Shown here one piece after another: positions 36,450 through 61,279 of a stretch of DNA of 64,000 nucleotides. The translations under genes were made by a program, and so were the position numbers. Below the pieces are notes generated by a model that saw nothing but the letters and a program-made list of their open reading frames with translations, did no database searches and was not told the origin of the DNA. Origin of the DNA: a virus; the IMG/VR virus record IMGVR_UViG_3300051212_000701, positions 21,951-85,950 of that record, one strand, 5' to 3'. Position 1 is the first letter of the stretch. Every line of letters begins with the position of its first letter.

Positions 36450-38273
36450 TTAAATGCTAGCAGACTGATATTCAGTATTATTGATTAAATAGGCTGTTCC
36501 GTCATTACCTAGGTCAGATTCGGATAATGATATTGAAGAATCTGTTACAGACAAGACATACTGATGGGTATATAGCTGGTAATGATTTGTGGCTTGATCA
36601 GAGGTCAAGGCATCTGGATATAAGGCTATATTGCTATAAAGATTGTCTCCGCCTGAAACTGAGCCATTTTGATTATAATTAAATCTAATATTACTTGTAG
36701 CAGCAGAAGATAGGATAAGCACTATATGGTGTGGCATTCCTTTTGTTAAAAATTCAGATATATTGGTTGCTGAAGAGTGGTTTACTCCATTTACATATAT
36801 GGCAGATATACCAGACTTATTTATAACCCCTGTAGATGACCATTCAAATATTTTGCTATTACTTGAAAACAATACATTTTGTGTTGTTCCCATACTTGGG
36901 GTAAAAATTAATTCTAAAGATCTTACTGAATTTGCTGAGTCTATATTAAATCCGCCGCCGTTATACATTCTAAGTCCATTATAATCGTTATAAGAAATTA
37001 TTGGATGATTGTATCTAGATAAAGAATAATCACTTAATGAATAAATTCTGTCTGAAGAATTGTCTGCATAAAAATCATTATTAGAAAAGAAATCAAGAGA
37101 CAAAGACTTTAATATTGGCAAATCTTTAGATGTATCTGAAGAAGACATTGTTACACGTAAATAAACAAGTCCGCTTGTTATTCCATCATTTTTATTAAAA
37201 AATGGTATTGGGCTATTATTTTTGCAGTTTTGCCAAGCTGTGCCGTCTTGACTTACTTGAACAATTATATTGTCTACGTCGTCTTCCCAAGATATTTGAG
37301 ATGTTACTACGTCTAACGAGCTTGGAATAATGATTGTTTCTGTAAAAGAAAATGTTTTTGTTCCTGAAGTATTAGTTTTAGCAAATGTAATATACGATTG
37401 ATCAGTTGACATAACTGCATTTTCATTAATAACTTCAGACCAAAGCTTTGTGCCTGGGTAATAGTATCTTGCTACTGGTCTCATTTTAGAATGATTTAAA
37501 CTAAATATGGATCCTCCGTCAGGATAAACAATTTGAGAATAGTCTAATTCTTTAATTCCTTCAGTATAATGTTTTGCTATTTTTAAACTACTTAAAACAT
37601 ATCTATAAAAAGATACAGAATCAACTACAAAATATTTGTTTGCAAGAGATGGTCCAGTTGTCCAGTCTGTATCGGTTTCTGTAAACACAAAATTATCTAA
37701 AGGAACTGAAGAAACCCTATTACCATTTATATATAAAGATATTGAATTTTTTGTATATGTGCATACAATATGTATTGCTTTATTATTAGAATACTTATAT
37801 CTTAATTCATTAGAATAAACCTTAAAAACAATATCTCCATTTTGATAAAATAAACCTATATTTTTAACTGGATCGCCTAATATTGTTACTTCAGAAGAAC
37901 TTGTATTTGGTAATTTTACCCATATTTCTAAAGAGAATGAGTTGTCTGAATAATATTTATTTGCAAGTCCTGGAGCATTATATGTTATTGTTGTTTCATC
38001 AGAAATTAGTGTTCCATAAATTCCGCCTGCAACTAGAGGCATTATCTTAGACCCAGATATTCCTGATACCGTTCCATTATTTATATTTCCTGAATAATCT
38101 AAAACTGCTTGTCCTGATATCTGATCGTATGAACTAAATGCGTCTCGTACAGCTTGATATGTTGGATAGTTTGAAAGTATTTGATTATAATAGTCAAATG
38201 TTCCAGACTTTACTTCATCTAAAGTGTAGTATGATATTGGAGAATCAGCCAATACAGTTCTAAAATATGACAT
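36450..38273 (-). CDS. virion protein with LamG/concanavalin-like domains, 607 aa
   Basis: The N-terminal half contains a LamG-type jelly roll: SFSLEIWVKLPNTSSSEVT, FKVYSNELRYKYSNNKAIH, IVCTYTKNSISLYINGNRVS and YFVVDSVSFYRYVLS. A second, weaker copy occurs in the C-terminal part (LELIFTPSMGTTQNVLFSS, IYVNGVNHSSATNI). LamG domains bind glycans, so this is a probable receptor-binding or capsid-decorating protein. It is the last gene of the fibre block. AT-rich codons and a high S/N/Y content match its fibre neighbours. Confidence 0.7.
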   Translation of the reverse strand: MSYFRTVLADSPISYYTLDEVKSGTFDYYNQILSNYPTYQAVRDAFSSYDQISGQAVLDYSGNINNGTVSGISGSKIMPLVAGGIYGTLISDETTITYNAPGLANKYYSDNSFSLEIWVKLPNTSSSEVTILGDPVKNIGLFYQNGDIVFKVYSNELRYKYSNNKAIHIVCTYTKNSISLYINGNRVSSVPLDNFVFTETDTDWTTGPSLANKYFVVDSVSFYRYVLSSLKIAKHYTEGIKELDYSQIVYPDGGSIFSLNHSKMRPVARYYYPGTKLWSEVINENAVMSTDQSYITFAKTNTSGTKTFSFTETIIIPSSLDVVTSQISWEDDVDNIIVQVSQDGTAWQNCKNNSPIPFFNKNDGITSGLVYLRVTMSSSDTSKDLPILKSLSLDFFSNNDFYADNSSDRIYSLSDYSLSRYNHPIISYNDYNGLRMYNGGGFNIDSANSVRSLELIFTPSMGTTQNVLFSSNSKIFEWSSTGVINKSGISAIYVNGVNHSSATNISEFLTKGMPHHIVLILSSAATSNIRFNYNQNGSVSGGDNLYSNIALYPDALTSDQATNHYQLYTHQYVLSVTDSSISLSESDLGNDGTAYLINNTEYQSASI

Positions 38274-38280
38274 GTTTCTC

Positions 38281-39552
38281 CTAGTTAGTTTGCTCTAAAG
38301 CTGCCACTCTTGCGGATAGCTCTTGTACCGCCTTAATTAATGGTGCAATAAATTCACCATATCTTAATCCTTGTTCTGAATTAGGGTCTGAAGGATCCAT
38401 GAGAATCCATCCAGCAAAATCATTTTGTGTGTGTAAATCTACTGCCTGCTTAACTTCTTGAGAAACAAGTCCGTAGTGATATCTTATGCCTGGTTGTGGC
38501 TCAAATGTTGGCTTACCATTTTCATCTAAAACAGGGTTTCCGTTTTCATCTACAACTTCTTTATTTTGACCAACAATAAATCTATATGATACTGGATGAA
38601 GATCATTTATAAAAGCTAATCCTAGATCTGATGTAGCAATATCTTTTTTCTGTCTTTGATCAGAAGTATTAATTGTTGATACACGGTTATAAATATTATT
38701 CCACTTATAAGTTGATGAGCCAAGATTATATGTAGTGTCTGAGAATGGGAACCAGTTTCCGCATCCAGAAGTTGATGCGCTTCCCATTGATGTAAATCCA
38801 GCTAAAGTTGCTCCTTCTAATGTCCAGCTATACAAAGGATTTGATACAGTTCCCGCTGGACCTGTTGGTCCTGCTGGGCCTTGTGGACCTGTTGGGCCAG
38901 CAACTGTTGAGGCTGCGCCTGCTGGACCTTGTGGTCCTTGAGGGCCTGTTGGTCCTGCTGGGCCTTGTGCTCCAGCAGATCCTGCCGTTCCTTGTGGGCC
39001 TTGTGTACCTTGTGGACCTTGTGGTCCTTGAGGTCCTGTTGGTCCTGTTGGTCCAGCAACTGTTGATGCGGCTCCTGTAGCACCAGTAGCACCAGTGGCA
39101 CCTGTTGGGCCTGCTGGGCCTTGGGGTCCAGCAACTGTTGAGGCTGCGCCTGTAGCGCCAGTAGGGCCTGTTGCTCCTGCTGGGCCTGCTGGGCCTTGGG
39201 GTCCAGCAACTGTTGATGCTGCTCCTTCTGGACCTGTTGATCCTGTTGGACCTGTTGATCCTGTTGGGCCTGCTGGGCCTTGTACGCCTTGTGCGCCTGT
39301 AGCGCCTGTAGGGCCTGTTGGACCCTGTGGTCCAGCAACTGTTGAATCTGCGCCTGTGGCGCCAGTGGCACCTGTTGGTCCAGTTAGTCCCTGTGGGCCT
39401 GTTGCTCCTGCTGGGCCTTGTGCTCCTGTGGCGCCTGTTGGGCCTGCTGGAATTCTAACAAGAGTCCATGCAACTCCATCCCATTTCCAGGTATTGCCTG
39501 CAAATGAGTACTCTTGGTTTAAAGATGGCGATGATGGAAATGTAATTGTCAT
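38281..39552 (-). CDS. collagen-like tail fibre with C-terminal S74 chaperone, 423 aa
   Basis: Starts with a short beta module ([28 protein letters not shown]), then about 190 residues of G-x-y repeats ([19 protein letters not shown] type), a small beta knob ([18 protein letters not shown]) and an S74 domain: [17 protein letters not shown], then PVSYRFIVG, then [15 protein letters not shown], ending in a short coiled coil. The triple helix gives a thin flexible shaft, and the S74 domain trimerises it and then cleaves itself off. Its promoter is an extended -10 at 39573-39581 with an AGGAG site. Confidence 0.85.
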
Positions 39553-39572
39553 GTTTCTCCTGTTCTTCTTTT

Positions 39573-39581
39573 ATTATACCA
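39573..39581 (-). promoter_or_regulatory. extended -10 promoter of the S74 collagen fibre
   Basis: TGGTATAAT on the minus strand; predicted start near 39566 and a leader with AGGAG before the ATG at 39552. No convincing -35 is seen. Confidence 0.5.
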
Positions 39582-39881
39582 TTAAGGTATTGATTTTTCC
39601 CATAGCCCAGTGTCTTCATTTAGCACTGAGCCATCTTCTGGGTCTGGATATATAAAAGCATCAATGTCTTCTCTATATATCATACCTGGTTTTGCAAAAT
39701 TTTTTCTTAGAGGTTCTTGATCATAGATATGAACTCCTCCTTTTGTATTATAAGAAGTCTTAATCCATGTACCGCCTAAGTTGTCTATAATCCATTGATA
39801 GCCTTCATCAACATGATCGTTGTTTCCTACTATTACTCTTAAAACAATATTATTTTCATCTATTTCTGCCCAATGTGACAT
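39582..39881 (-). CDS. small virion-associated protein, 99 aa
   Basis: The sequence (MSHWAEIDENNIVLRVIVGN, WIIDNLGGTWIKTSYNTKGG, PGMIYREDIDAFIYP) resembles small proteins encoded between structural genes in many aquatic phages, especially cyanophage-like ones. It contains no membrane or catalytic feature. The W-A-x-x-D-x-x-N-I-V start is shared in style with the 81-residue protein at 48483-48728. A fibre-associated or chaperone-like role is likely by context. Confidence 0.6.
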   Translation of the reverse strand: MSHWAEIDENNIVLRVIVGNNDHVDEGYQWIIDNLGGTWIKTSYNTKGGVHIYDQEPLRKNFAKPGMIYREDIDAFIYPDPEDGSVLNEDTGLWEKSIP

Positions 39882-39882
39882 A

Positions 39883-40779
39883 TTACACCGCTGACTTTAA
39901 ATATCTAATTATTACAATTCCAGAAGCTCCTGAACCTGCAAAAAAAGCTGATTGTTGATTATATGCATTTGATCCTCCGCCTCCACCACCGCCGCCGCCT
40001 GTGTTTGCTACTGCATCTCCAAACCAACCGTTAGGACCTGAAAAAGAATTACTTGTTCCATCATTTAATGCCCATCCGCCTGCTCCGCCTACTGAAGATC
40101 CACCAGGTGCTGAGTAGGTTGTGCTTACACTTCCACCACCGCCGCCGCCTGCATAATATCCATTATAACCTGTAGAGGTTGCTGTAGCCCATGAAATATA
40201 TGCTTGAGTACCTGGTCCGCCTGCGCCACCATTATTTGATCCTCCACCTGAACCACTACCTGCAGCTCCTCCGCCGCCACCATTTGCACTTGTTGTTCCA
40301 CCACCGCCTGAGCCTCCATTATACCCTTGTGCTGGAACTACTGATGGAACATTTCCTGCGCCTGCGCCCGCAGACACTCCCCAGCTTACTCCACCACCGC
40401 CTGAGCCTCCATTTTTATTTCCATTCCAGTTTCCAGTTCCTCCACCTGCTGCAGAAAATGAATTGAATGATGAAGCTGTATCTTGTCCGCCAACCACTAC
40501 TGGATAAGAATTTGGAGTCAATGTAAATGAAGTACTACGAACTCCTCCTGCGCCGCCACCGCCACCGCCGCCTCCGCCTGAGCCGCCGCCGCCAATTACT
40601 AAAACCTCTACATTTAAATTTGAATTGGATAGAAGAAAAGTATCGCTTGATTTAAATGTTCTGTAATAATATGTAGAGTCAGATGTTAATACGCCACCAG
40701 AAATTTCTGCTTGTTTTTTCCCCCAAGCACCAAAAGCTCTTGATGAAAAGCTTGACCATGCTGTTACTATTGGACTCAT
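39883..40779 (-). CDS. glycine-rich adhesin-like fibre protein, 298 aa
   Basis: After a short beta start ([19 protein letters not shown]), the protein has a strand ([18 protein letters not shown]) followed by about 190 residues with more than 40% glycine in runs such as [15 protein letters not shown] and [10 protein letters not shown]. It ends in a strand ([11 protein letters not shown]). This is the Gly-rich domain of phage adhesins, in which polyglycine type II helices pack side by side. I start at ATG 40779-40777, overlapping the upstream stop (ATGA); the longer frame would be read inside the previous gene. Probable receptor-binding tip. Confidence 0.75.
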
Positions 40780-42404
40780 GCAAATTTTACCATTGATGCA
40801 AAAACATAAAAAGAAGCATCTGCTGTTTTTGTAATGGTAAATGAGTATGCATCTACTGAAGATGCATTTCCAGCCGAAGGAGCTGTTCCATTTTGCCATT
40901 TAACTGTTGTACTTGCACCATCAATTGTTAATGATGTCATATATCTTGGCGTAGCATCATTTGTGTTTAAAAATAATATTGTTGCAGATTGTCCTGCTGA
41001 TAAAATTGAATTTAATGTTGTTGTTGAATCACCTCTAACATTTAATATAAAGTTTGAAGTTGATGGAAGAATATAATACATAAAGCTAGAAGTTTTAAAG
41101 TTTATATTTATTGTCCCGCTTGCTCCAGCACTAACGATTGTTGTGGTTTCTGTTGCTGCAGTTAAATTACTATTAGTAGCCAGTACTCCAGTTGCGCCTG
41201 TAGGACCTGTTGGTCCTGTTGGTCCTGGAACTATTGAGTCTGCCCCAGTTGCTCCTGTGGCACCTGTAGCGCCTGTAGGACCTGTTGGTCCCTCTGTGCC
41301 TGTAGGACCTGTAGCACCTGTTGGTCCAACTATTTGTCCTGAAGAAGACCATGAAGATCCGTCCCAAATATAAAGGTCTCCGTCTGCATCTACTATTCTT
41401 GCATCATTAACTGAGTTTCCTGTAAGTGGTAGTGTTGCAATAGTTGGTGCGCTAGCTTTTAGATTTATAGAAAGTCCTTGTGGGCCAGTTGGACCTACTG
41501 GTCCTGTTGGTCCTGTTGGTCCTGCTAAAGAGCCACCAATTTCTACCCAAACAGAATTGTAGTAAATATACTCTCTTCCTGTTGCAGAATTAAACCAACC
41601 TTGTCCTTCATAAGGATTAGATGGAGGATTTTCTGATGTTATAGAAAATGCTCCTGCTGAACCAGTTGAGCCTGTTGCACCTGTTGGACCTGTAGGACCT
41701 GTTGGTCCTGTTGGTCCAGCAACTGTTGAATCTGCGCCTGTGGCGCCAGTAGGTCCTGTTGGTCCTGGAACTATTGAGTCTGCTCCTGTTGGACCTTCTG
41801 GACCAGCAACCCCTGTGGCACCTGTTGGACCAGTTGCTCCAGTTGCTCCTTGTGGACCTTGAATTGTTCCTACATTTTCCCATTGAGAATTAGCCTGAGA
41901 CCAAACGAATAGGGATCCATTAATTAAATATCCGTCACCAACATTTCCTGTAGGGTGTGCAGATTGTAAACTTGATAAAGATGGATAAGAACCTAATATT
42001 GTTACTGCAGTTCCTGTAGCACCTGTTGAGCCTGTTGCTCCTTGTGGACCTTGTGCACCCGTTGCACCTGTTGGTCCAGCAACTGTTGAATCTGCGCCTG
42101 TGGCGCCAGTAGGTCCTGTTGGTCCTGTAGCTCCAGTTGCACCTTGTGGGCCAGGAACTGTTGAATCTGCGCCTGTGGCGCCAGTAGGTCCTGTTGGTCC
42201 TGTAGCTCCAGTTGCACCTTGTGGGCCAGGAACTGTTGATGCTGCACCTGTAGCTCCAGTTGGACCTGTTGGACCTGTTGGACCTGGATGAGCTGTTAAA
42301 TAATCATCAATGTCTTGAGCCAAATAGCCTAAGTCTCTTGGAATGTCAGGTGACATATCCAAGGTTGGATATCTAAAATTCTTAGGCGTTAAATTGCTAG
42401 GCAT
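40776..42404 (-). CDS. collagen-like fibre with beta modules, 542 aa
   Basis: Alternates G-x-y collagen blocks ([19 protein letters not shown]) with two kinds of small beta module: one of the type [20 protein letters not shown]...W and [24 protein letters not shown], the other of the type [14 protein letters not shown]. The C-terminal 120 residues form a beta domain without collagen ([30 protein letters not shown]). The first collagen block includes exact 75-bp DNA repeats. The ATG is 6 nt after a TGGTATAAT, without a Shine-Dalgarno sequence. Likely a long, thin tail or capsid fibre. Confidence 0.8.
42081..42230 (-). repeat. exact 75-bp tandem repeat (two copies) in a collagen-like fibre gene
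   Basis: Units begin at 42081 and 42156 and the start of a third at 42231. Each encodes 25 residues of collagen-like sequence. A diverged version of the unit is found again further downstream in the gene near 41700. Confidence 0.75.
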
Positions 42405-42406
42405 TT

Positions 42407-43480
42407 TTAAATTATACCACTTTCACGGTTCTGAGCACTATGATAGAACCCTAAATTATCATGCAATCTTTGGTCATCGCTATTTAACGATACAGCTATT
42501 TCCCCATGCTTTGAGGCATCATCAAAAAACCCTAGATTATAATTTGCTAAGGCTAGTAGGTCGTGTGGCTTCCATCCCCAAGCATCTGACTCACAAAAGT
42601 AGTCAAGGTACTTTTCTTTTATGTTAAGAGCTAGCTCTGAATATTCTTTTACTTTGTTCCAATCTCTTATATCGTAAAAATATTGTGCAAGATCAACATA
42701 AGGCTCTCTTCTTTGTGGGCATTCAGCAATTGCTTGTCTTAACCAGAACTCTTGGTTTATTGGCTCACATTTTGCAATATATCTCATAGACTCACATCTT
42801 TCTGGTTTCCATTGTGACAATGGCAAAGATAAATGTCTTTTGAATTCTTCTGCTGCTTCTTTATACCTAGCATGGAAAAACAATTCTCTTGCGTAATAAT
42901 GTGCACATCTATCACTTGCTGGATCTTCTTTTGCTGCCATTTCTAAAAGTGGAAGATACTGTCCTCTTGATTTATTATTATCTGGAAGATGATATATTTT
43001 TACATTTATTTTTTGTCTTACTTCATCTATTCCATAATAACTAACCGATTCATGAATAGGAAATTTCCATCTATGTCCATTACGAGCATGCATTCTTAAT
43101 GCATCAAACTCTACACCTGGTTGACCTGCTTCTGTTATATGAGTAACAAGTGTATGTATTGGTCTTGTTACATTAGAACCTTCTAATAGTTCTAATTCTG
43201 ATCTCCAGCCTTCAGATAAAACTTCATCCATATCTAAAGATATGCAGTAATCTATATCTGCTGGAATTAAAGATAAAGCCGCATTTCTAGCATCATCAAA
43301 TCGCCAAGGGGATATAGATATTTGGAATACATTAATTCCTAATGACTTTGCTATTTCTGCGGTTTTATCTGTAGAACCAGTATCTGCAATTAAAAGATAG
43401 TCTGCATCTTTTGCTGAATTGTACCATCTTTCAACAAACTGCTCTTCATTCAGAGCAATTGTGTATACTGCTATTTTCAT
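42407..43480 (-). CDS. GT2-family glycosyltransferase with TPR-like C-terminus, 357 aa
   Basis: The N-terminal GT-A fold of family 2 is clear: [19 protein letters not shown], the [14 protein letters not shown] strand (around residue 33) and the metal-binding D-x-D in YCISLDMDE. The C-terminal 170 residues are paired helices with TPR character ([42 protein letters not shown]). GT2-TPR enzymes glycosylate proteins or cell-surface polymers. Its placement among fibre genes suggests that it decorates fibre proteins or alters the host surface. It has an AAGGGA site. It may be a fairly recent arrival, as in many phages. Confidence 0.82.
42411..42419 (-). promoter_or_regulatory. extended -10 promoter, apparently leaderless
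   Basis: TGGTATAAT on the minus strand, with 6 nt (TTAAAA) between the hexamer and the ATG at 42404. It overlaps the end of the glycosyltransferase gene region. Confidence 0.55.
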
Positions 43481-43508
43481 TTATTTCCCTTATTGTAGGA
43501 TATAATCA

Positions 43509-45893
43509 TTAACCGATTACAGTTATGATTCCGTTCATGCTTGCGTGGAATTGACAAATATAATACAAAGTATTTGGGGCATCTAGTGGTACTGTAAATG
43601 TAATTCCTCCTACATCATCTCCCCCGTTTGTTACACCAGTTGAGTATGTGTTTGCAGAATTATAAGCGCCACTAGTTGTCTGTAGCCAGAATGGGTGTCC
43701 AGCTGCATTTACTGTAAACACATAAGTGTGACCTCTTAATAATGTTAATCCTGGGTTTCCTGAAGTTCCATTTATACTATAACTTCCTCCCGCAGGGCTT
43801 GTTACAATATAGTTGGCTGTAATACTAGGGCCTGTAGGTCCTGTAGGGCCTGTTGGGCCACCTGCTGGTCCAGCTTCTCCTGTAGGACCTGTAGCACCTG
43901 TAATACCTACGCCTGTAGCGCCTGTAGCGCCTGTTGGTCCAGTAGCGCCTGTAGCGCCTGTTGGGCCTGTTGGGCCCTGAATACTTGATCCATTTGCGCC
44001 TGTTGGGCCTGTTGGGCCTGTTGGGCCTGTTGCGCCTACACCAGTAGCGCCAGTAGCGCCAGTAGCGCCTGTTGGGCCCTGAATACTTCCTACGTTAGTC
44101 CATTCTGAGCCTGTCCATACGTACAGCTCTCCATTAACTAAATACGCATCTCCAGTAGATCCTGTTGGATGTGCAGATTGAAGTGCTGCTAGTGTTGGAT
44201 AAGATCCCAAAATTGAAACGCCAGTTCCATCTGCACCTGCAACTCCTGTTGCTCCAGTAGGACCTGTGGCACCTGTTGGGCCTGTTGGGCCAACCGCTGT
44301 TGATGCTGCACCTGTAGCTCCAGTAGGTCCTGTTGATCCTGTAGGTCCTTGTTTTAAAGTAAAGTTTAAAATCAAATCAGTTGATGTTCCAGAATTTAAA
44401 ATTCCAGGAGCACCGTTTGGTCCAGTGTCTGTGACAGTTCCGATTGTTATTGTTGTGGGCCCTGCTGGTCCTGTTGCTCCTGTTGGACCTTGCTTAAGAA
44501 CAAAATCAAGAATTGCTGCATCTAATGCTCCACTATTTGTAACTGTTGCATTTCCTGTTGGGCCTGTAGACGTAACAGTTCCTACGTTTACCGTTGCAAC
44601 TGTTCCTGTAGGACCAGTTGGTCCTGTTGGTCCTTGTTTAAGAACAAAGTCAAGAATTGCATCTTGTGCTGTTCCTACATTAGTTACAGATGGATTTCCT
44701 GTGGGACCAGTTGATGTTGTTGTTCCTACAGCAATAGTTGCTGGGCCAGTTGCTCCTGTTGGGCCCTGAAACTGTCCTGCATCAATCCATGTTGATCCAT
44801 CCCAAACATAAAGATGAAGATCTGTTAATACAATCCAAGAGTCTCCACTTGTATTTCCTGAAGAAGGAAGAGCGGCGACGTTTGCTTGTGTTCCCTTAAT
44901 ATTAATTGATCTTCCAGCTGCTCCTGTTGGGCCAGTTCCTCCTGTGGGTCCTGTTGGACCTGTGTTACCTGTAGCCCCTGTAGGTCCAGCAAATCTTCCG
45001 CCATTTACCCACGCTGTTCCACTCCAAATATAAACTTCGCTTGTATCTTGAACTAAGTATGTTGCTCCCAACGCTCCAGATGCTGGTAAAGCTGCAAGAT
45101 TTGCAACCGTACCCTGTAGAGTAAGAGATTGTCCCGTCGCACCTGTTGGGCCTGTTGCGCCTGTTACTCCAGATGTTCCATTTACTCCTGGTGCGCCTGT
45201 AGGACCAGTTGCTCCAGTTGCTCCTGTAGTTCCTGGATTTCCAACTACTGCAAAAACCCATTCAGACAAGGTTCCTGATCCGTTTTTGGCATCTACGCTT
45301 ACAGATATACTTACATTTTTAACAACTTGAGTAATTATACCTTCTACATAAGTTGTAACATTAAGCGGATTAATTACACGAACTCTTTGTCCTGCTGTGT
45401 ATGCACCACTGTTGTTTACATAAAATACTTTCAATCCATTACTTACTTGAACCGATGTTGTTGATGTAACATCTGAATACCCAGCACCTGTTGCTCCAGT
45501 AGTCCCGCCGCCGCCAGTTCCTCCACTGAGTGTTCCAGACATGTCTACTCCAGATATTGTAAGTGAGAAGCAGTTAGGAGTTGTTGTTACTGCTGCAATA
45601 GATTCTCCTGCAGCTAAAATTAATGAATGCTCTAATCTTAAAGTTGTATTGTTTTGAACATTTACGCTTCCATACAGAGTATATGGGTCTAAGCTAGACC
45701 TGTTTACATTATAAAGATTGATTACTTGATCGCCATTTTCTCCGAGAAGGAATAGGCTGAATGGCAAAGTTGATGAACTAAAATTAGTTACAGTAAATTC
45801 TTTTATAATAATTGGAGATACTGCTGTATATATTTTTGCTGGGAATGAAGGTATTAGTGAGGGTCCAGCAAATCTAATTGGAGCATATGACAT
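43509..45893 (-). CDS. collagen-like fibre with repeated beta modules and a cupredoxin-like tip, 794 aa
   Basis: A beta N-domain (1-135) is followed by collagen blocks alternating with beta modules of the type [21 protein letters not shown] and [20 protein letters not shown]. Three copies of a [12 protein letters not shown]...[12 protein letters not shown] linker follow. The last 100 residues are a cupredoxin-like domain: [34 protein letters not shown], then [13 protein letters not shown]. The histidine in GHPFWL, and Cys, His and Met in C-x2-H-x2-M, are the four ligands of a type 1 copper site. Similar tips occur in marine phage fibres. Confidence 0.78.
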
Positions 45894-45907
45894 TAACTAA
45901 ACCTCCC

Positions 45908-46624
45908 CTAGACTATAGACCACTTCGACATTAGATCCTTTTCAACAGTTTCATATTCAGCAAACTGTAAGGCTCTATCGTAAATTAGAAATTCTCCAAT
46001 TTTAAAGTTTCCATAGCTGGAAACATATCTTCCTATTGATTGTCCAGTCATTGAAGCAACTGAGCCGCTAGATACTGCACGAGAAACCTCTACTCTATTT
46101 CTTCTTACTGTTCTTTGGTTGTTTGTAAGATCATAAACCATAGTGTAGATTTCTGTTGTTCCTGCAGATGCTGCAGTAACTATAGAGCCTTGATCATCAT
46201 TATAAAATCCGAATCTATGTGTGTTTGCAGTTAAGTTTCCTGCAAATAAATTTGTTCTTGTTCCAGTATTTGTTCCGCCAAATATCCATGTATTATTATT
46301 TGCTGGCTTAGAAGCAACATAAAAAATTGTAAATGATTTTCCTGCTATATATGCTAAAGTTTGATCAGAAAATGTCATAAAGTCATCTGATCCATCAAAT
46401 TGAAGTGCTCCGAGTCCACCTAAGCCTGTAGGCAAAAACAATGGTTTATTAGATTGCGTTCCTTGAACCATATGTCTTGAAGCTCCTGATTTATCATTCC
46501 ATTGAGAAACAAAATTACTTCCATCTCTAATACATGTTGCTGGTAAGGATGCGTCTAGATGCAAACGAAGACCTACTGTAGTAAATCTTGCTCTACGGAA
46601 ATTTGAACGTTGATTAGGTAGCAA
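45908..46624 (-). CDS. LamG/concanavalin-like virion protein, 238 aa
   Basis: A single LamG-type jelly roll fills nearly the whole protein: LRLHLDASLPATCIRDGSNF, SQWNDKSGASRHMVQGTQSN, ALQFDGSDDFMTFSDQTL, KSFTIFYVASKP and FKIGEFLIYDRALQF. This is the common pattern of glycan-binding LamG_3 domains. The start codon is TTG at 46624-46622 with an AGGAG site 8 nt upstream, right after the previous stop. It is likely a receptor-binding or decoration protein. Confidence 0.75.
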   Translation of the reverse strand: MLPNQRSNFRRARFTTVGLRLHLDASLPATCIRDGSNFVSQWNDKSGASRHMVQGTQSNKPLFLPTGLGGLGALQFDGSDDFMTFSDQTLAYIAGKSFTIFYVASKPANNNTWIFGGTNTGTRTNLFAGNLTANTHRFGFYNDDQGSIVTAASAGTTEIYTMVYDLTNNQRTVRRNRVEVSRAVSSGSVASMTGQSIGRYVSSYGNFKIGEFLIYDRALQFAEYETVEKDLMSKWSIV

Positions 46625-47068
46625 TTAATTATCTCCTGTTCCGCCGTAAACTACTGGCTTTTCTGGCCATGTTACTTCTGAAATACTTGAATAAGACTTA
46701 AGTAGCTCTAGTTTATCTCTATAATTTTTCCAAGCTTGTTTGTGAGCTGTAGATAAATCTTCTTTTGTGTCAAGGCCTTCTGTTGAAATTAATTCAAATT
46801 CAATATGTGCAAGAAGCTCTTCTTTTTTATCATCTAAAGATAGTGTTTCTTTTCTAACCACATAGACCTTACCACCCTGAATATATGGCTCACAAAAAAC
46901 AAGTCTTTCATTTGCTGAATTAAATTCTATTTTATCTACTACTTCTTTTACATTATTTTCTGCAAGAAAATCTTCGTATTCACCACTAGCTGGAAATGAA
47001 GTAGAAGGAAATAGGATTGCCAGTTCTCCGACATTAACTACTTTATTATTTTCAACTATGGCGTACAT
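46625..47068 (-). CDS. tail fibre assembly chaperone-like protein, 147 aa
   Basis: An acidic, mostly helical C-terminus (DTKEDLSTAHKQAWKNYRDK, LELLKSYSSISEVTWPEKP) has the R-x-K-L...WP ending typical of phage tail assembly chaperones (Phage_tail_APC type). The N-terminus is a beta part starting MYAIVENNKVVNVGE, with P-S-T-S-F-P like the paralogue at 55568-56074. Such chaperones aid folding of neighbouring fibres. It lies between a LamG protein and a beta protein gene and has an AAGGAG site. Confidence 0.6.
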   Translation of the reverse strand: MYAIVENNKVVNVGELAILFPSTSFPASGEYEDFLAENNVKEVVDKIEFNSANERLVFCEPYIQGGKVYVVRKETLSLDDKKEELLAHIEFELISTEGLDTKEDLSTAHKQAWKNYRDKLELLKSYSSISEVTWPEKPVVYGGTGDN

Positions 47069-47091
47069 GATTCTCCTTTTAAATAAGTTTA

Positions 47092-47529
47092 TTAAACGTA
47101 TAGATCGGCAAATGCATATCCGCCGTATATTGTTGTTCCACCGTCTCTGGTGTAGAAATTAAGAAGTGTTGTGTTTGTTGATAGAAGTGGTGCAACGTTA
47201 GCTGCTCCGCCACCATCCCACTTAATTCCTCCAGGCCATGTGATTGAATAGGAGCCTCCGCTTTTAATTTCTACCTGCCAAAATGCTGCTTTTGCTGTTG
47301 ATGGGAAGTTTGAAAAAACAACTGTTAGATTTCCATTAGCGTTAATTCTAAAAACTCCTGCTGCTGAAAGATCGCAAGTCGCTGTTCCTCCAGCGTTAAT
47401 AGTTCCTTTATCTGAATATTCAACTGGAATGTTGAAGTATGTATATCCCTGTCCATTAATTGGAGCTTGAAGATATGTGTATGTCCACAAAGATGGGGTT
47501 ACAGCTTGTGGGCTCATTGATACTGGCAT
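47092..47529 (-). CDS. small beta-sandwich virion protein, 145 aa
   Basis: A strand-rich protein (GTINAGGTATCDLSAAGVFR, INANGNLTVVFSNFPSTAKA, FWQVEIKSGGSYSITWPGG) with the fibre-knob style also seen in the protein at 56074-56448, with which it shares the pattern G-T-x-N/A...D-L-S...F-x-N...GGSY-x-x-T-W/F. This beta-sandwich family recurs in aquatic phages. The gene has an AAGGAG site and is followed by the APC-like gene. A host-receptor contact is possible. Confidence 0.6.
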   Translation of the reverse strand: MPVSMSPQAVTPSLWTYTYLQAPINGQGYTYFNIPVEYSDKGTINAGGTATCDLSAAGVFRINANGNLTVVFSNFPSTAKAAFWQVEIKSGGSYSITWPGGIKWDGGGAANVAPLLSTNTTLLNFYTRDGGTTIYGGYAFADLYV

Positions 47530-47544
47530 TTTATTCTCCTTGTT

Positions 47545-48480
47545 TTAGCTTGACTTTATGTAATATGTAATTATGCAGATACCTGATCCGCCATTGTTTC
47601 CGCCGCCGCCTCCGCCGCCTGAACCAGTGTTTGCTTGTGCATCTGCTCTAGGGGTTCCAACATAGTCACCGTGACCTTGTCCACCACCGTTTGAACCGCC
47701 TCCGCCTGAACCTCTTCCTGAGCCGCCACCACCGCCTGCAAGACCGTATAGCCCTGCGCCTCCACGTCCGCCGACAGAATGTCTTCCTGAGTCATTAGAA
47801 TTAGCCCAACCTGGACCTCCTCCAGATGATCCTTCTGAAGAGTATCTCGAACCACCGAAGTATCCTGAATATCCTCCACGGTTTGGCCAAACATGACCGT
47901 ATTCTCCAGCTCCGTTAGCTCCGCCGCCGCCTCCGCCTGCGCCCCATGAATTTACCCAGTTTCCTTGTCCGCCTCCGCCTGAGCCTCTTCCTGTAATATT
48001 ATCTGCTCCTGGTCCACATGAACCAGACTGTCCGTCTCCTTGTGTTGAACCTCCACCGTATGCAACCATATAGAATGGCTGACCTGAAGTTCCAAATGTT
48101 GAGTTTCCGCCTTGGTTATTACAACTTCCGCCGTTTGCAATACCGATCTGAATTGATGATCCTGTTGCAATTGATGAAATGTCAAGTTTTCTTCTAAGTA
48201 ATTGTCCAGCTCCACCTCCGCCATGATTTGTTGACCCGTTAGAGCATCCACCGCCGCCGCCTCCGCCTACAAGGATTACGTCTATATATGGAGCACTGTT
48301 TACTGGTCTTGTCCAAACTCCACTACTTAAAATAGATACTTGATATGAATTATAAAATCCTGACAAGTTTGCAGCAATTAAAGGAACAGCAACAGATGTT
48401 GCAAGAGTTGTTGTTGCACTTTGTATTTGTGTATCTAGTCCTGGGACATAAATCTGATTAATTGTTCCGTATGTTGCCAT
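47545..48480 (-). CDS. glycine-rich adhesin-like fibre protein, 311 aa
   Basis: A short start with TYGTINQIYVPGLDTQIQSA and a strand (GVWTRPVNSAPYIDVILVGG) lead into about 200 residues of Gly-rich sequence (GGSCNNQGGNSTFGTSGQPF, GRGSGGGGQGNWVNSWGAGG), ending with a strand (GGSGICIITYYIKSS). It is a paralogue of the gene at 49009-50004 and shares the same N-terminal YxPGL motif. It lies in the same Gly-rich adhesin family as 39883-40779. Predicted polyglycine II core and receptor-binding tip. Confidence 0.75.
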   Translation of the reverse strand: MATYGTINQIYVPGLDTQIQSATTTLATSVAVPLIAANLSGFYNSYQVSILSSGVWTRPVNSAPYIDVILVGGGGGGGCSNGSTNHGGGGAGQLLRRKLDISSIATGSSIQIGIANGGSCNNQGGNSTFGTSGQPFYMVAYGGGSTQGDGQSGSCGPGADNITGRGSGGGGQGNWVNSWGAGGGGGGANGAGEYGHVWPNRGGYSGYFGGSRYSSEGSSGGGPGWANSNDSGRHSVGGRGGAGLYGLAGGGGGSGRGSGGGGSNGGGQGHGDYVGTPRADAQANTGSGGGGGGGNNGGSGICIITYYIKSS

Positions 48481-48482
48481 TA

Positions 48483-48728
48483 TTATTGTACCTCTATTTC
48501 AATGTAATCATCTAAACCTCTGTGCTCAGCTAAAGGTCTTAGATGTTCTGGTGCTATGAATTTTCCTTCTTTAAGCTCCCACATAATTCCTGGCTGTGGG
48601 TTATAATCTGTAATATCAACTCTTTCATACTGAGACCAGTCTGGGTGCTCAGATATAAAATCTTCATCTGCAACAATAACATTTCCTATGATATTGTCTG
48701 GAGTTAGAATTGCCCAAGCTCTTGACAT
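48483..48728 (-). CDS. small protein between adhesin genes, 81 aa
   Basis: The sequence starts MSRAWAILTPDNIIGNVIVA, continues DEDFISEHPDWSQYERVDIT and ends IEIEVQ. It resembles, in style, the 99-residue protein at 39582-39881 (both start near W-A and contain an N-V-I-V/R-V-I-V strand). Such proteins often flank aquatic-phage fibres and may be fibre assembly factors. The ATG overlaps the stop of the preceding gene (TAATG). Confidence 0.5.
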   Translation of the reverse strand: MSRAWAILTPDNIIGNVIVADEDFISEHPDWSQYERVDITDYNPQPGIMWELKEGKFIAPEHLRPLAEHRGLDDYIEIEVQ

Positions 48729-49006
48729 TACTCAGCACCTCCTGCAAGTTCATCTGCAACTGGTTCATCAATTGCAACTAGATGCTCTAGAGTAACTGGT
48801 GGTGCTGAAGGTGGAACATAATGTGTCCACTCTTCTGTTTCGTTATTATATGTTGATTGAGGTCCTGGCTTTGTTTCCCAGTCAGTGTAGTCAAACCAAA
48901 CTTTGTCTTTGTAGTCAGGCATATCATTAATAGCATCTAAACTTCTTACATTTAGAACATTATAGACAGTACCGTCTTCATTTAAAAATACTACATCTCT
49001 AAACAT
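48728..49006 (-). CDS. small protein between adhesin genes, 92 aa
   Basis: Start at ATG 49006-49004 (MFRDVVFLNEDGTVYNVLNV); the frame is open to an earlier ATG at 49027 that would overlap the preceding gene. It has W-F-D-Y-T-D-W-E in the middle and an acidic C-terminus (IDEPVADELAGGAE). I see no clear ribosome binding site for either start. The position between Gly-rich adhesin genes suggests a fibre accessory role. Confidence 0.45.
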   Translation of the reverse strand: MFRDVVFLNEDGTVYNVLNVRSLDAINDMPDYKDKVWFDYTDWETKPGPQSTYNNETEEWTHYVPPSAPPVTLEHLVAIDEPVADELAGGAE

Positions 49007-49008
49007 AA

Positions 49009-50004
49009 TTACGCTTTGATGTACCATTCAATAATGGCAACACCGCTACCTCCTCTATTGCCTACTCCGTTAGAATGGCTGTTTCCTCCGCCGCCTGAAC
49101 CAGTACCATTTCTACCTTCTCCACCAGAGTTATCTGTTGTTGGTGAGCCTCCCGCTCCGCCACCTGCAGAACCTCCACCGCCAGATCCGCCGCCTCCGCC
49201 GCCTCCGCCTGCAAGACCGTATTGCCCTTGTCCTCCACGTCCGCCGCAACCAATCCAAGATGTCCAGCTATGATTCATTCCGTGTCCGCCACCAGATGCT
49301 CCTGGACCATAACCAAATCCTCCTGGATATCCAGATCCTCCACGTCCGTTTTCAAGTGTTGTGTTAATAGCGTTTTGTCCAGCCTCTCCTGCTCCGCCTC
49401 CGCCGCCGCCTGCGCCATACTGATAATCTCCACCAGCTCCTCCACCGCCACCAGAGCCTCCTCCGTTTTGATTTCCCATTCCTGCGCCCATTGAACCGTT
49501 GTTGCCGCTATTACCAGTTCCATATGGATATCCGCCTCCGCCGCCGCCGTAAGCAATAACGTAAAATGGATTTCCGTTTACACCAAATGTTGAGTTACCA
49601 CCATTGTTACCGTTCGAGTTTCCTGAAACTGCTGGTCCACCATTTCCAATAGTTACTGGGATGTTTCCTCCTACTGGAACTGAAGAAATGTCTAACCATC
49701 TTTCAACTAGTTGTCCAGCTCCACCACCGCCTGAACCATTGTGAGACCATGAGTGTCCGCTTCCACCTGAACCACCGCCACCAACAAGAATTAATTTGAT
49801 TGCTGGTCCTGAGTTTGCTGGTCTTGTCCAGTTTCCTGAGCTGTATATTCTAGTTTCTCTAGGAAGGTACATTGAGCTAACTCCGCCAGCCGCAATTGCT
49901 TCTGCTGTGATACCAGCGTTGAGTCCTGCTGTAATAGCTCCATTAATTGTTGAGCTTAGACCAGGCAGGTATATTGACTGCGATGTGTTGGAAACCTGTG
50001 ACAT
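49009..50004 (-). CDS. glycine-rich adhesin-like fibre protein, 331 aa
   Basis: The N-terminus SQSIYLPGLSSTINGAITAG, then a strand (GNWTRPANSGPAIKLILVGG) and about 230 residues of Gly-rich sequence ([40 protein letters not shown]), ending RGGSGVAIIEWYIKA. It is the most glycine-rich of the three copies. The shared strand W-T-R-P-x-N-S-x-P and final I-I-x-Y-I-K strand show duplication from the same ancestor as 47545-48480. It has an AAGGAG site. Predicted receptor-binding tip. Confidence 0.75.
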   Translation of the reverse strand: MSQVSNTSQSIYLPGLSSTINGAITAGLNAGITAEAIAAGGVSSMYLPRETRIYSSGNWTRPANSGPAIKLILVGGGGSGGSGHSWSHNGSGGGGAGQLVERWLDISSVPVGGNIPVTIGNGGPAVSGNSNGNNGGNSTFGVNGNPFYVIAYGGGGGGYPYGTGNSGNNGSMGAGMGNQNGGGSGGGGGAGGDYQYGAGGGGGGAGEAGQNAINTTLENGRGGSGYPGGFGYGPGASGGGHGMNHSWTSWIGCGGRGGQGQYGLAGGGGGGGGSGGGGSAGGGAGGSPTTDNSGGEGRNGTGSGGGGNSHSNGVGNRGGSGVAIIEWYIKA

Positions 50005-50021
50005 TCTTTTTACTCCTTAAA

Positions 50022-50342
50022 TCAAGATGTTGTTATTTTTACGCCAGAAATAAACATTGTTACTGCGTTGTTATTTGATGCAGTTAAAAGAATGCTTTCT
50101 GCTGTGTTAAGAACTTGCTTAATATCAAGCGTCATAAATGTTTGTGGAGGAAGACTTAGCTGATAAGCCAAGAATGTTCCTGCCATCTTTACGCTGAAAT
50201 GTTGTGCTTGAGTTGTTATGTTCATTGCTGTGATAGATGTTACTACATCTGTTTCTGCTGCTGGTACTGTCCAAACACCTGTTTCGGCATTTGTAAGAGT
50301 TCCAGCATAGAATCTCGCTGGCAAACTGACTGTTGTTGGCAT
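50022..50342 (-). CDS. small beta-rich virion protein, 106 aa
   Basis: The protein (VSLPARFYAGTLTNAETGVW, TVPAAETDVVTSITAMNI, AQHFSVKMAGTFLAYQLSLP) is a compact beta domain with the composition of a neck or fibre-attachment protein. It has a GGGAG site and follows the N-terminal-anchor-like gene at 50344-50676. Related small proteins occur near fibres in aquatic phages; no specific function is known. Confidence 0.5.
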   Translation of the reverse strand: MPTTVSLPARFYAGTLTNAETGVWTVPAAETDVVTSITAMNITTQAQHFSVKMAGTFLAYQLSLPPQTFMTLDIKQVLNTAESILLTASNNNAVTMFISGVKITTS

Positions 50343-50343
50343 A

Positions 50344-50676
50344 TTAGATTACTCCCATGTTCTGATAGATTGTAAAGTTGTTTAATTCATTAGCAACTGC
50401 TGCTACTTGTGTTGCTCCTGCTGCTGCTACCGCAGCTACTTGTGTACTTCCTGCTGATGTAACTGTCGTTACGGCGCCAGTTACCGCAGTAGAGATATCA
50501 TTGAGTTTTGTATTTGTAGCTGCCAAAACATCGTTGACTCCCAAAAGATTTCCCATTGATTCAATTGCCTTAGCTAAGTAAACCAATTCCTGTGCGCCAA
50601 GTGTAGAACCACTAAGGGCTGATACCTTAGTCTTAAAAAGATCTACTTGCGCTGTCAAGCTTGCATAATCTGGCAT
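50344..50676 (-). CDS. fibre anchor-like protein, 110 aa
   Basis: Starts MPDYASLTAQVDLFKTKVSA and then has a helical, alanine/threonine-rich coiled-coil-like stretch (TAVTGAVTTVTSAGSTQVAA). The start is homologous to that of the 223-residue protein at 56448-57119 (MPDYSSLTSQITQFKTAASA), also sharing G-N-x-L-G-V near residue 45, so both probably carry the same attachment module. It is preceded by a promoter and AGGAG, and starts the Gly-rich adhesin subunit. Confidence 0.55.
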   Translation of the reverse strand: MPDYASLTAQVDLFKTKVSALSGSTLGAQELVYLAKAIESMGNLLGVNDVLAATNTKLNDISTAVTGAVTTVTSAGSTQVAAVAAAGATQVAAVANELNNFTIYQNMGVI

Positions 50677-50693
50677 TGTTTTCTCCTATATGA

Positions 50694-50702
50694 ATTATAT
50701 CA
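50694..50702 (-). promoter_or_regulatory. extended -10 promoter of the Gly-rich adhesin subunit
   Basis: TGATATAAT on the minus strand, with a start predicted near 50687 and an AGGAG site before the ATG at 50676. It lies in a 113-bp gap that also contains a hairpin. Confidence 0.5.
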
Positions 50703-50754
50703 TAATCTCTTTGTTACCTGATGTTCCGCCCTATCTGTGTTACACATAATTATA

Positions 50755-50783
50755 CCCCAGTGGCTTTCTAGAAGCCAGCGGGG
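50755..50783 (-). other. GC-rich hairpin after the transporter gene
   Basis: CCCC-GC-TGGCTT and AAGCCA-CT-GGGG pair around a CTAGA loop, with one internal mismatch zone of 2 nt. It follows the transporter stop but has no T run, so it may be an imperfect terminator or an mRNA-end structure. Confidence 0.45.
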
Positions 50784-50789
50784 GCGGGG

Positions 50790-51704
50790 CTATTCTATTG
50801 TCAAATAAGTCAATATTCCAACCAGGACTACTGGTACAACTAAGGCCAGTATAGCCCTATAGTGCTTCTTTATTGGAGTGTCAAAATAGGACTTGGTAAT
50901 AACCAAACATTTGTGGGTCGGAGACAGCATATAGCCTGCATAGTCTATTGCAAAAAATAGAGGCAAATATTCTACTCCATAAACTGTTGCCGATAAAGCT
51001 GTAAAGCCTGCAAACTTTCCACTACTTCCCAAGGCAAAGCTTGCAATAAATCCAGCTACGGCTACGGCAACCAGCAAGTCCTTTTCATGTGCTGAATTTA
51101 CCCAGGCATTAATTTGATCAAAGTTTGCTTTTACAATATTGCTCAATATTATAACAATGCCTACAAAAAGAAGGGTAGTGGCATATGACTTAATTTGTTT
51201 TCTATCTTCTTTCCAGGTGGTCTTTTCAATTGGTCTATCTATATTAATATCTACTTCATCTTCTTTTACAATTTTAAATATATAGTAAAAAATAACAATT
51301 GCTGCCGTCGCTAAGAGAGGCCAAATTCTTCCCATAAACTCTGCATAAGAAATGCTTAATGCTGCCATAGGGACAAGTACTGTTGCTTCTAGTGGAGACC
51401 AAAAGTAGTAGTGATGAGTGGATAGATAGTCTATGATTCCAAATATTTTTTTCTTTGAACTATTTGGAGCAATTGTGTCTAAGGCACCTGCTGATATTGA
51501 TGCTCTTCCATTTACTGGTAATACTCCTGACACCAAGGATATAAGAGCTACAACGGCTCTTTTAGATCTTACTCTTAAAGCAATAAATTTATATACTGGT
51601 AAAAATACTTGAGTTTTTTTAGCCCAGAAAGACAGGGACATAACTATTGATAGCAACAAAAGATACTGCTGATTGTCTGTAATTAAATTAGTTGTTATTT
51701 CCAT
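50790..51704 (-). CDS. DUF401/CitMHS-like integral membrane transporter, 304 aa
   Basis: A multi-span membrane protein with about 7-8 hydrophobic helices (for example LLLLSIVMSLSFWAKK, IWPLLATAAIVIFYYIF, TLLFVGIVIILSNIV). It carries the pattern of the DUF401 branch of the ion-transporter superfamily: LVSGVLPVNGRASISAGA, then HHYYFWSPLEATVLV, and SPTHKCLVITKSYFDTP near the C-terminus. In place of the usual P-G-G loop it has V-N-G. DUF401 members are permease-like and their substrates are unknown. Such a transporter is unusual in a phage. The start overlaps the U32-methyltransferase gene by 17 bp, so they are co-translated. Confidence 0.7.
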   Translation of the reverse strand: MEITTNLITDNQQYLLLLSIVMSLSFWAKKTQVFLPVYKFIALRVRSKRAVVALISLVSGVLPVNGRASISAGALDTIAPNSSKKKIFGIIDYLSTHHYYFWSPLEATVLVPMAALSISYAEFMGRIWPLLATAAIVIFYYIFKIVKEDEVDINIDRPIEKTTWKEDRKQIKSYATTLLFVGIVIILSNIVKANFDQINAWVNSAHEKDLLVAVAVAGFIASFALGSSGKFAGFTALSATVYGVEYLPLFFAIDYAGYMLSPTHKCLVITKSYFDTPIKKHYRAILALVVPVVLVGILTYLTIE

Positions 51705-53349
51705 TTTTTTTCTCTACTACTACTAAGTATAATCCGTTCCACCAATTAGACTCGGACTCTATAGAATTAAGCACTTTCTTACTATATAATATTTTTAATC
51801 CTGAATCAACTATTCCTTTATGAGCACCTTTAACTACATCTGTCCAATTTGCGTCATCAAAAATTAATATGCATGTCTTTGCAAAAGATTTAGAATAATA
51901 CTTGACTGCATTTTTAGTTGATTCAAAATCATGAGGTCCGTCATAAAAAAATAAATCTATTTCAGATATCTCAGACAAATTTACCTTAAACATATCTGAA
52001 TTACAAATATAAACTTTGTTTTCTCCTATATAAGGCTTTATATTATTCTTAAACTCTGCAAGACTATTTGTATTTGGAGTATCCCAATCAGACCTGACTG
52101 CTTTTGGGGCATCTTGCCACATATCCACAAAATAAGCAGACAAGTTATTGTTCATTAGAGCTGATGCTGCTGTAGCTCCTTGATAAGAACCGACCTCTAA
52201 ATACTTAGAAGATGTTTTGGCAAGACTATTGATTAAGGACTGAACTCTGGTTGAAGTTAGTCCTGGTATGTTTATTTCTAAAGTACTATTTACTGAATCT
52301 ACAAGTTCTTTTGCTACTGCTGCAACTTTTTCATTTATATGCTTTCCATATTTAGCTGCTACTATTTTATCGCAATATCCACAATCCCAGCAGTCAAATT
52401 TGCAGTTTTTAATTTTATTTCTCCATATTGCTATGGGCTTTTCAACTAGATTTGTTTCTTCAATAAAATCATTAAAAGTATCAAAAAGAATATCTTCTTT
52501 ATTAGCATACCTTGTAATTATATCCATTGTCTCTTTTAACCTTGTATGCGATTCTCTGCCGTGCATTTTAATTACATCAATACCTAGGTCATCTATAAAC
52601 TCTTGCCAGTCCTGCCGCCAAGGCGGGAAGTTAGCTGTCTTTAAAGATACAGCAAAGTCTTCATGGTCCCATTTTGGGCAAGAAACTCTGCTTATCGGAT
52701 CATTAAAATACTGAGGTCCTGTAGTTCTAGTATTATTGAACTGATAGTGCTCATCCATCATTATACAGCCTCCGTAGCACCCTTCATTAGCCAATAAGGA
52801 CAACTTGACGCCAAATTGCTGCTTAGCTTTTTTGAAGCGCTTTAGCTTCTCGTGGTCTCTCATAAGGTCTCTATCTAAGTTGATATAGTCAAAGCCAGCC
52901 TTGGCCAACTTTTCAATATCTCTAGGCTCAGACACATTTCTTAATATTGTATTCTTTACAAAAAGATCTGGAAAAGCTTTTTTAATTTGCCCTGTTGCCA
53001 TCCAATGGGTATGTGGTATTGTAGCGGACCTTATGCCCGCATTGTAGACAGGCTCAAAGCTTGTAATAAATAAATCTAAATTCTCTTGAGAAGGCCTGAC
53101 CTCTATATTATTAAAAACAGCAGAAGCTGGTATTCCAGTTTCTGCCTGAACATATAGAGCCATATTGATTAAATAATCGTAATCTTCTTCTTTGTTTACA
53201 AACACGTCTCCCATGGCGTCTTGTGTAAAAGGAGGAATTCTGCAAGTAAAATAAAAATCATATATATACTGTTTTTGTTTTTTTAAAAAACTTACAAAAT
53301 CAGCAAACTGATTTTCATTTAGTTTAGGATTTAAAGGAACGCTAAACAT
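51688..53349 (-). CDS. U32-like TIM-barrel domain fused to a class I methyltransferase, 553 aa
   Basis: Residues 1-350 resemble a peptidase-U32/UbiU-type TIM barrel: SATIPHTHWMATGQIKKAFP, then INLDRDLMRDHEKLKRFKK, KLSLLANEGCYGGCIM (C191, C195), C224, and a C316-x3-C320-x2-C323-x2-C326 cluster that could hold an Fe-S centre. Residues about 370-553 are a Methyltransf_24-type SAM-dependent methyltransferase: KYLEVGSYQGATAAS (motif I), ISEIDLFFYDGPHDFEST. U32 proteins without protease activity take part in Fe-S-dependent hydroxylations. A fusion with a methyltransferase suggests a modification enzyme. It is an odd passenger among fibre genes. Confidence 0.6.
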   Translation of the reverse strand: MFSVPLNPKLNENQFADFVSFLKKQKQYIYDFYFTCRIPPFTQDAMGDVFVNKEEDYDYLINMALYVQAETGIPASAVFNNIEVRPSQENLDLFITSFEPVYNAGIRSATIPHTHWMATGQIKKAFPDLFVKNTILRNVSEPRDIEKLAKAGFDYINLDRDLMRDHEKLKRFKKAKQQFGVKLSLLANEGCYGGCIMMDEHYQFNNTRTTGPQYFNDPISRVSCPKWDHEDFAVSLKTANFPPWRQDWQEFIDDLGIDVIKMHGRESHTRLKETMDIITRYANKEDILFDTFNDFIEETNLVEKPIAIWRNKIKNCKFDCWDCGYCDKIVAAKYGKHINEKVAAVAKELVDSVNSTLEINIPGLTSTRVQSLINSLAKTSSKYLEVGSYQGATAASALMNNNLSAYFVDMWQDAPKAVRSDWDTPNTNSLAEFKNNIKPYIGENKVYICNSDMFKVNLSEISEIDLFFYDGPHDFESTKNAVKYYSKSFAKTCILIFDDANWTDVVKGAHKGIVDSGLKILYSKKVLNSIESESNWWNGLYLVVVEKKNGNNN

Positions 53350-53354
53350 TACTC

Positions 53355-53906
53355 CTACAGATCTACTTTATAAGTGGTGTCGTCTGGATTAAGCATTATG
53401 CCAAATCTTTTGCTTAATAGTATACCACTTTCTACCCAGTCCTTGCAAGAATCTATCTCTTTTATTATTTCGCCTTTTCTTTTTAATAAATCATATTCAC
53501 TTTCGTATTTGGCAAAACGTAAGCATACTGGAGTTGATTTTGACATCTTTATTTTATTATAATAATATTTGTCCAGCATAAAATGCATTAACGCTTTATT
53601 AATAAGATAAGCGTTATATTTATCTTCTTCTGTTAAAACGTATTTATATTTATCTTTATATGGCTCTAATCTTGATTTGTCTATTTGATCATACGATGGA
53701 GTATTCTCTCTAACAGATATTTCTCCTTTATATTTATTTGCAAACTTCCAGGCTAAAGCTACCTGCTCTGGAACAACAATACAAGTTGGCATTACTATAT
53801 ATGGCAAAAGACTTTCTTCTACGCATCCGACCAAAATTCCAGAACAATCACCTATTTCTTTAAAATATGGCTTATTGTCTTCTGGGTTGTATAAGAAATA
53901 AATCAT
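53355..53906 (-). CDS. hypothetical protein, 183 aa
   Basis: A charged, lysine- and tyrosine-rich protein (EDKYNAYLINKALMHFMLD, KYESEYDLLKRKGEIIKEID). The N-terminus is a beta part (IYFLYNPEDNKPYFKEIG). No family recognised. It overlaps the preceding gene by 4 bp and lies 5 bp before the U32-methyltransferase gene, so it could be part of that small unit. Nothing indicates a structural role. Confidence 0.5.
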   Translation of the reverse strand: MIYFLYNPEDNKPYFKEIGDCSGILVGCVEESLLPYIVMPTCIVVPEQVALAWKFANKYKGEISVRENTPSYDQIDKSRLEPYKDKYKYVLTEEDKYNAYLINKALMHFMLDKYYYNKIKMSKSTPVCLRFAKYESEYDLLKRKGEIIKEIDSCKDWVESGILLSKRFGIMLNPDDTTYKVDL

Positions 53907-54634: not shown

Positions 54635-54649
54635 TATATTGCCTATCTA

Positions 54650-57119: not shown

Positions 57120-57122
57120 TTT

Positions 57123-60608: not shown

Positions 60609-60620
60609 ATTTGTTTTCTC

Positions 60621-61241: not shown

Positions 61242-61264
61242 ATTTTCATACCCCTCCTACCTAA

Positions 61265-61273
61265 AGTATACCA
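61265..61273 (-). promoter_or_regulatory. extended -10 promoter of the short collagen fibre
   Basis: TGGTATACT on the minus strand, with a start predicted near 61258 and a strong AGGAGG site before the ATG at 61241. Confidence 0.5.
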
Positions 61274-61279
61274 GAATGA

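Follow-up and report, generated by a model that had tools for sequence, protein, structure and literature searches.

The window analysed here, a stretch of 64,000 nucleotides, comes from a viral record of 85,950 bases (IMGVR_UViG_3300051212_000701). The DNA polymerase III alpha and portal proteins are approximately 57% identical to those of the Streptomyces phages BillNye and Wakanda (Stanwilliamsviridae; approx. 56% identity for the portal against that of Wakanda), and the order of the portal, protease, capsid, adaptor, tape measure and minor tail genes is the same as in phage Wakanda. A megablast search of phages with 24 kb of the window gave no match. An actinobacterium living in water is a reasonable guess for the host. 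The tape measure, minor tail and spike genes are found at 12.6–27.2 kb of the window. Upstream of the portal gene lies a surface-protein cluster, which is rich in genes for collagen-like, Gly-rich and LamG-like proteins, and at the place of which Wakanda carries other genes. The cluster includes a gene of the 'tail fiber assembly' type and the gene considered here, which encodes a collagen-like virion fibre protein of 794 residues (table 1). With the fibre gene upstream of the portal gene, and outside the tail module, attachment to the tail, and with it the label 'tail fibre', is an assumption.

Table 1. Fibre gene, predicted copper ligands and neighbouring features (positions in the window).
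Feature	Position	Strand	Basis
Surface-protein cluster, >25 kb	36450..63970	(-)	
Family 2 glycosyltransferase gene	42407..43480	(-)	phrog_13126 (E = 1e-117); PF00535
Collagen-like virion fibre protein, 794 aa	43509..45893	(-)	ORF; PF01391 collagen above cut-off; G-x-y blocks
C-terminal cupredoxin domain (P0002), predicted	43512..43838	(-)	AlphaFold2 model, mean pLDDT 94.6; Foldseek and VIA matches to type 1 copper proteins
M786, predicted axial Met ligand	43536..43538	(-)	Met in 140/143 domains, Gln in the other three
H783, predicted second His ligand	43545..43547	(-)	kept in 142/143 domains
C780, predicted Cys thiolate ligand	43554..43556	(-)	kept in 142/143 domains; only Cys of the domain
H733, predicted N-terminal His ligand (GHPFW)	43695..43697	(-)	kept in 142/143 domains (this His was part of some retrieval patterns)
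N-terminal domain, residues 1–118	45540..45893	(-)	mean pairwise identity 93.5% in 30 full-length proteins, that of the window included
'Tail fiber assembly' type gene	55568..56074		

Nine blocks of G-x-y triplets, located between residues 124 and 680, form an arm, and the Pfam collagen family PF01391 is matched with E = 3e-11. The arm is preceded by a domain without a match in Pfam or PHROG, which is presumed to be the virion-attachment end, and is followed by a final domain of approximately 105 residues (approx. 690–794); the segment P0002 begins with the last G-x-y residues of the arm. A search of NCBIfam gave no match. The initial annotation had described a collagen-like fibre tipped by a cupredoxin-like domain with all the ligands of a type 1 (T1) copper site. 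The coordinates that it gave for the C-terminal domain are correct, the AGHPFWL and C-x2-H-x2-M segments that it quoted are present, and the collagen-like nature of the protein agrees with the PF01391 match.

Structure prediction, one of the checks that had been proposed for the C-terminal domain, came out as a cupredoxin. The AlphaFold2 model, for which the domain was aligned with 40 viral-contig relatives (A1), has a pTM of 0.86 in addition to the pLDDT value of table 1, and residues approximately 690–794 are thus predicted with high confidence to adopt the cupredoxin β-sandwich fold. The best 50 Foldseek matches in the PDB all fall among copper-binding cupredoxins and copper oxidases or reductases, natural or engineered, including AcoP, rusticyanin, laccases, plastocyanins, auracyanins, amicyanin and a pseudoazurin carrying the amicyanin loop. 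With VIA-align 2 the best match is rusticyanin (Z 10.7, 2.6 Å over 96 residues, 24% identity), and the cupredoxin domain of nitrite reductase 2dv6 is matched with Z 10.4 (1.9 Å over 89 residues). The nearest solved folds are therefore T1 copper proteins, namely rusticyanin, amicyanin, plastocyanin, copper nitrite reductase and laccase.

The relation to copper proteins is fainter at the sequence level, and a profile is needed to detect it. With the single sequence as the query, the PDB sequences returned only a weak match to auracyanin (E = 0.25) and an unrelated VNAR, and the score of the window domain on PF00127 (Copper-bind) is 16 bits (E = 0.016), under the gathering cut-off of 21.2 bits; its best relative reaches E = 1.7e-6 on the same family. 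Profiles made from A1 and from a broader alignment (A2) mainly match T1 copper proteins among the PDB sequences, the A2 profile being led by nitrite reductase (E = 2.9e-4), plastocyanin (7.5e-4) and amicyanin 1sfd (0.0022), with an azurin carrying an engineered CAAHAAM loop at E = 0.003. In the profile alignments, the Cys, second His and Met of the domain coincide with the copper ligands of nitrite reductase (YICTLHPWMKG) and with those of the engineered azurin loop. For the first His, the GH of azurin falls on the GH of the domain, while FPHN of plastocyanin and MPHN of amicyanin are two residues off, so that the assignment of this ligand leans on fold and conservation. Penicillin acylase, thioredoxin reductase and protocadherin also appeared as weak profile matches and were dismissed as noise because the ligand loop lies outside their alignments. 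Several members of A1 and A2 match PF25489 (At5g54830-like domain, a name taken from a plant gene; best E = 4e-6), which suggests a eukaryotic branch of the same cupredoxin domain.

Conservation of the predicted ligands was evaluated on 143 domains from viral contigs, phage isolates and bacterial genomes, after removal of rows more than 90% identical. The ligand set is H-C-H-M in 140 of them, H-C-H-Q in two and T-S-N-Q in one, so that 142 retain the full set if an axial Gln is allowed, with the proviso that the figure for the first His is biased in the sets obtained from the A1-based scans of viral contigs and bacterial genomes, because the retrieval pattern contained this residue (and not the C, H and M), and that some other patterns used on viral contigs also included either this His or the Cys-His pair. 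The 12 domains examined from isolates, retrieved by tblastn without a pattern, are all H-C-H-M, and the complete set of His, Cys, His and Met named in the initial annotation is thus upheld. Conservation of the ligands is near-absolute, and most of the domain is far less conserved; the length of the C-x2-H-x2-M/Q loop is fixed in 142 domains, with the distance from the first His to the Cys ranging from 42 to 63 residues. As is typical of T1 copper cupredoxins, the last three ligands share a single loop close to the C-terminus. In stellacyanin the axial position is occupied by Gln, so that the two Met-to-Gln changes appear tolerable for a copper site; one Gln-bearing relative (L171) comes from an Acidobacteria genome. 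The T-S-N-Q exception is the second domain of one relative (L208), which is still recognizable with all four positions changed, and this one complete loss shows that the fate of the four residues is linked. An intradomain disulfide involving the Cys equivalent to Cys780 is ruled out for 133 of the 143 domains, since they contain a single Cys. By taking into account fold superposition and alignment, the four residues may be placed as a T1 site, and it is very probable that the fibre tip carries a functional one.

The initial annotation considered the short C-x2-H-x2-M loop to be distinctive, a claim that does not hold, since amicyanin has the identical spacing (Cys92, His95 and Met98; PMC12723479), as does the window domain in YICQFHASM, and the same short spacing is found in some nitrite reductases (9cck, YICTLHPWMKGTISV). 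Besides the loop, amicyanin shares the cupredoxin fold with the window domain. However, overall identity is low, the first ligand lies in PHN in amicyanin and in GHPF in the window domain, and amicyanin carries electrons for methylamine dehydrogenase as a soluble protein, whereas the window domain forms the end of a phage fibre. The first His is followed by Asn54 in amicyanin (His53-Asn54) and by Ser86 in rusticyanin (PMC12723479), and it is followed by Pro in the window domain, which is not classified as an amicyanin because His-Pro replaces His53-Asn54. By analogy with amicyanin, a role as electron carrier for methylamine dehydrogenase might be considered; it is unlikely given the phage context. 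Rusticyanin, the closest fold match with VIA, is instead a larger protein, found in acidophiles, and its loops, that of the ligands included, are longer.

Direct homologues are found in other phages. The C-terminus of PHROG 677 ('baseplate wedge tail fiber protein connector') is the same domain (E = 4.8e-26 over residues 4–108 of P0002), which is present in 334 phage records, nearly all of Synechococcus or Prochlorococcus phages, and frequently forms the C-terminus of gp9-like proteins (e.g. gp9 of S-SM1, Syn19 and P-RSM4). The T4-like cyanophage proteins of the gp9 type retain the ligands in the 12 isolate domains examined; unlike the window protein they represent another carrier, mostly without a long collagen arm in the isolates examined, and they bear no copper-protein annotation. 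Among predicted viral structures, the best matches to the domain model are likewise cyanophage fibre and gp9 proteins, and lower-ranked matches in BFVD include small giant-virus 'beta-sandwich proteins' of pithovirus- or marseillevirus-like type (A0A481Z6J5, A0A481YVH3 and A0A481Z7Q7). The domain is internal, rather than terminal, in many relatives, and two copies approximately 600 residues apart are present in viral-contig proteins of more than 2,000 residues (L057, 4081–6243; L056, 1–2172). The bacterial relatives (L169–L222) are mostly from Bacteroidota and Myxococcota, with up to 58% identity and the same ligands. They differ from the phage domains in being cellular, many of them single-domain secreted proteins or lipoproteins; some are short with signal peptides or lipoprotein signals, as judged by eye, and these secreted or lipoprotein cupredoxins mostly score weakly in Pfam. 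Transfer of a host plastocyanin (petE) onto the fibre is unsupported, because the nearest cellular relatives found are mostly these cupredoxins of Bacteroidota and Myxococcota and not cyanobacterial plastocyanin.

The tip of the fibre is exchanged between related phages. When the N-terminal domain alone was used as the query, 31 loci were retrieved, 29 of them with a complete ORF; the fibre ends in the cupredoxin domain in 26 of these and in another module of approximately 45 residues in the remaining three (L245, L246 and L251), with no cupredoxin elsewhere in the DNA retrieved for these three loci. Since three close relatives end the same fibre in a different module, the tip is exchangeable. 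The alternative ending reads GDVKWDSNYIYVC..TNTWKR.PINTW. Among the 30 full-length proteins of table 1, mean pairwise identity is 70.5% in the tip. With respect to the window protein, the identity of the N-terminal domain stays between 0.86 and 0.95, and the tips fall into two groups (0.53–0.63 and 0.79–0.90) that do not track it, as in L224 (95% N-terminal, 60% tip) and L241 (89% and 90%). Such divergence is, at the level of sequence, the pattern of recombining tip alleles that is usual for receptor-binding parts, from which a role of that kind may be proposed, with the caveat that divergence and exchange can also arise without selection for adsorption.

The explanation that fits best, and that we regard as fairly probable, is that the protein provides an exchangeable virion-surface fibre tip carrying a T1 copper site, where copper loading and a part in adsorption are what we infer from the fold, the ligands and the exchange of tips; that the tip acts mainly as an exchangeable adhesion module is a proposition with about even chances. 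According to this scheme, the last approximately 105 residues would fold as a cupredoxin with a T1 site (His733, Cys780, His783 and axial Met786) and a ligand loop of amicyanin-like length, and would sit at the end of a collagen-like fibre at the virion surface. The fibre would probably be assembled metal-free in the host cytoplasm, with copper acquired outside the cell, after lysis. Bound Cu could then lock the ligand loop to yield a compact and robust tip, and the variable loops of the latter may contact the host surface.

Alternatively, the copper site itself may be the point of the domain, by engaging copper- or redox-active partners on the host surface or by carrying out redox chemistry there. 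This would be the copper counterpart of the iron 'Trojan horse' idea, and binding of iron by HxH motifs has indeed been proposed for phage fibres (T4 gp37 and alterophage R22Y; PMC11705849), which resemble the present case in having a metal in a phage fibre, here predicted, and differ from it in that iron is bound in HxH repeats rather than at one predicted mononuclear T1-type site per domain. The conservation of the ligands, higher than that of most of the domain, and the cellular relatives, which with their signal-peptide or lipoprotein character look like working copper proteins, would agree with it. However, neither a partner gene nor an oxidase or a copper-receptor link was noticed in the locus, the same fibre carries another tip in three relatives, and the cupredoxin domain is also embedded within long proteins, so that this reading is unlikely. 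Equally doubtful is its extension to aquatic phages, and cyanophages in particular, as bearers of a working blue copper site on virion fibres with copper used in adsorption, and there is little likelihood that such use would proceed through the redox state or through recognition by host copper proteins, with the site as a virion-borne redox centre. Cupredoxin folds without ligands exist, and the second domain of L208, still recognizable with all four positions changed, would be in line with a metal-free relic whose H, C, H and M are conserved because they pack the β-sandwich. However, Met-to-Gln changes aside, no domain has lost some of the four residues while keeping the others, and packing would hardly account for the conservation of a single Cys in a surface protein, which makes a relic quite improbable. 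It is also very improbable that the site holds another metal, such as Zn, solely to brace the structure: metals with a structural role are common in virion proteins, and T1 sites accept Zn or Co in vitro, but a single Cys with an axial Met or Gln is the pattern of copper, and a Zn brace is generally built from a larger number of Cys, His or Asp residues.

A different question, compatible with any of the readings of the metal site, is the position of the protein on the virion. It may be a head fibre or decoration rather than a tail fibre, providing loose attachment to particles, mucus or cell surfaces, as could be argued from the location of its gene in the surface-protein cluster upstream of the portal gene, away from the tail genes, and from the presence of other genes at this place in Wakanda, which has the same head–tail order. 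However, a gene of the 'tail fiber assembly' type is part of the same cluster, and homologous domains are found within cyanophage gp9 and fibre genes adjoining baseplate genes, so that a head fibre is a possible, though not a probable, assignment.

Neither the tools used nor the open-access papers searched identify this domain in phage particles as a copper domain: nothing relevant was found on copper or plastocyanin in connection with phage tails, and in these papers the words cupredoxin and cyanophage occur together only in one on Borgs, each once. As far as searched, it is therefore new to recognize that phage fibre proteins commonly include a conserved predicted T1 copper domain. Should the domain bind copper, each fibre chain of many cyanophages and freshwater phages would bear a mononuclear copper site on the exterior of the particle, which would add new metal chemistry to virions, might tie phage adsorption to the availability of copper, and would provide a functional label for a family that is now named only after its carrier gene.

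Directly downstream of the fibre gene lies that of a family 2 glycosyltransferase, which could modify the fibre or the collagen-like proteins.
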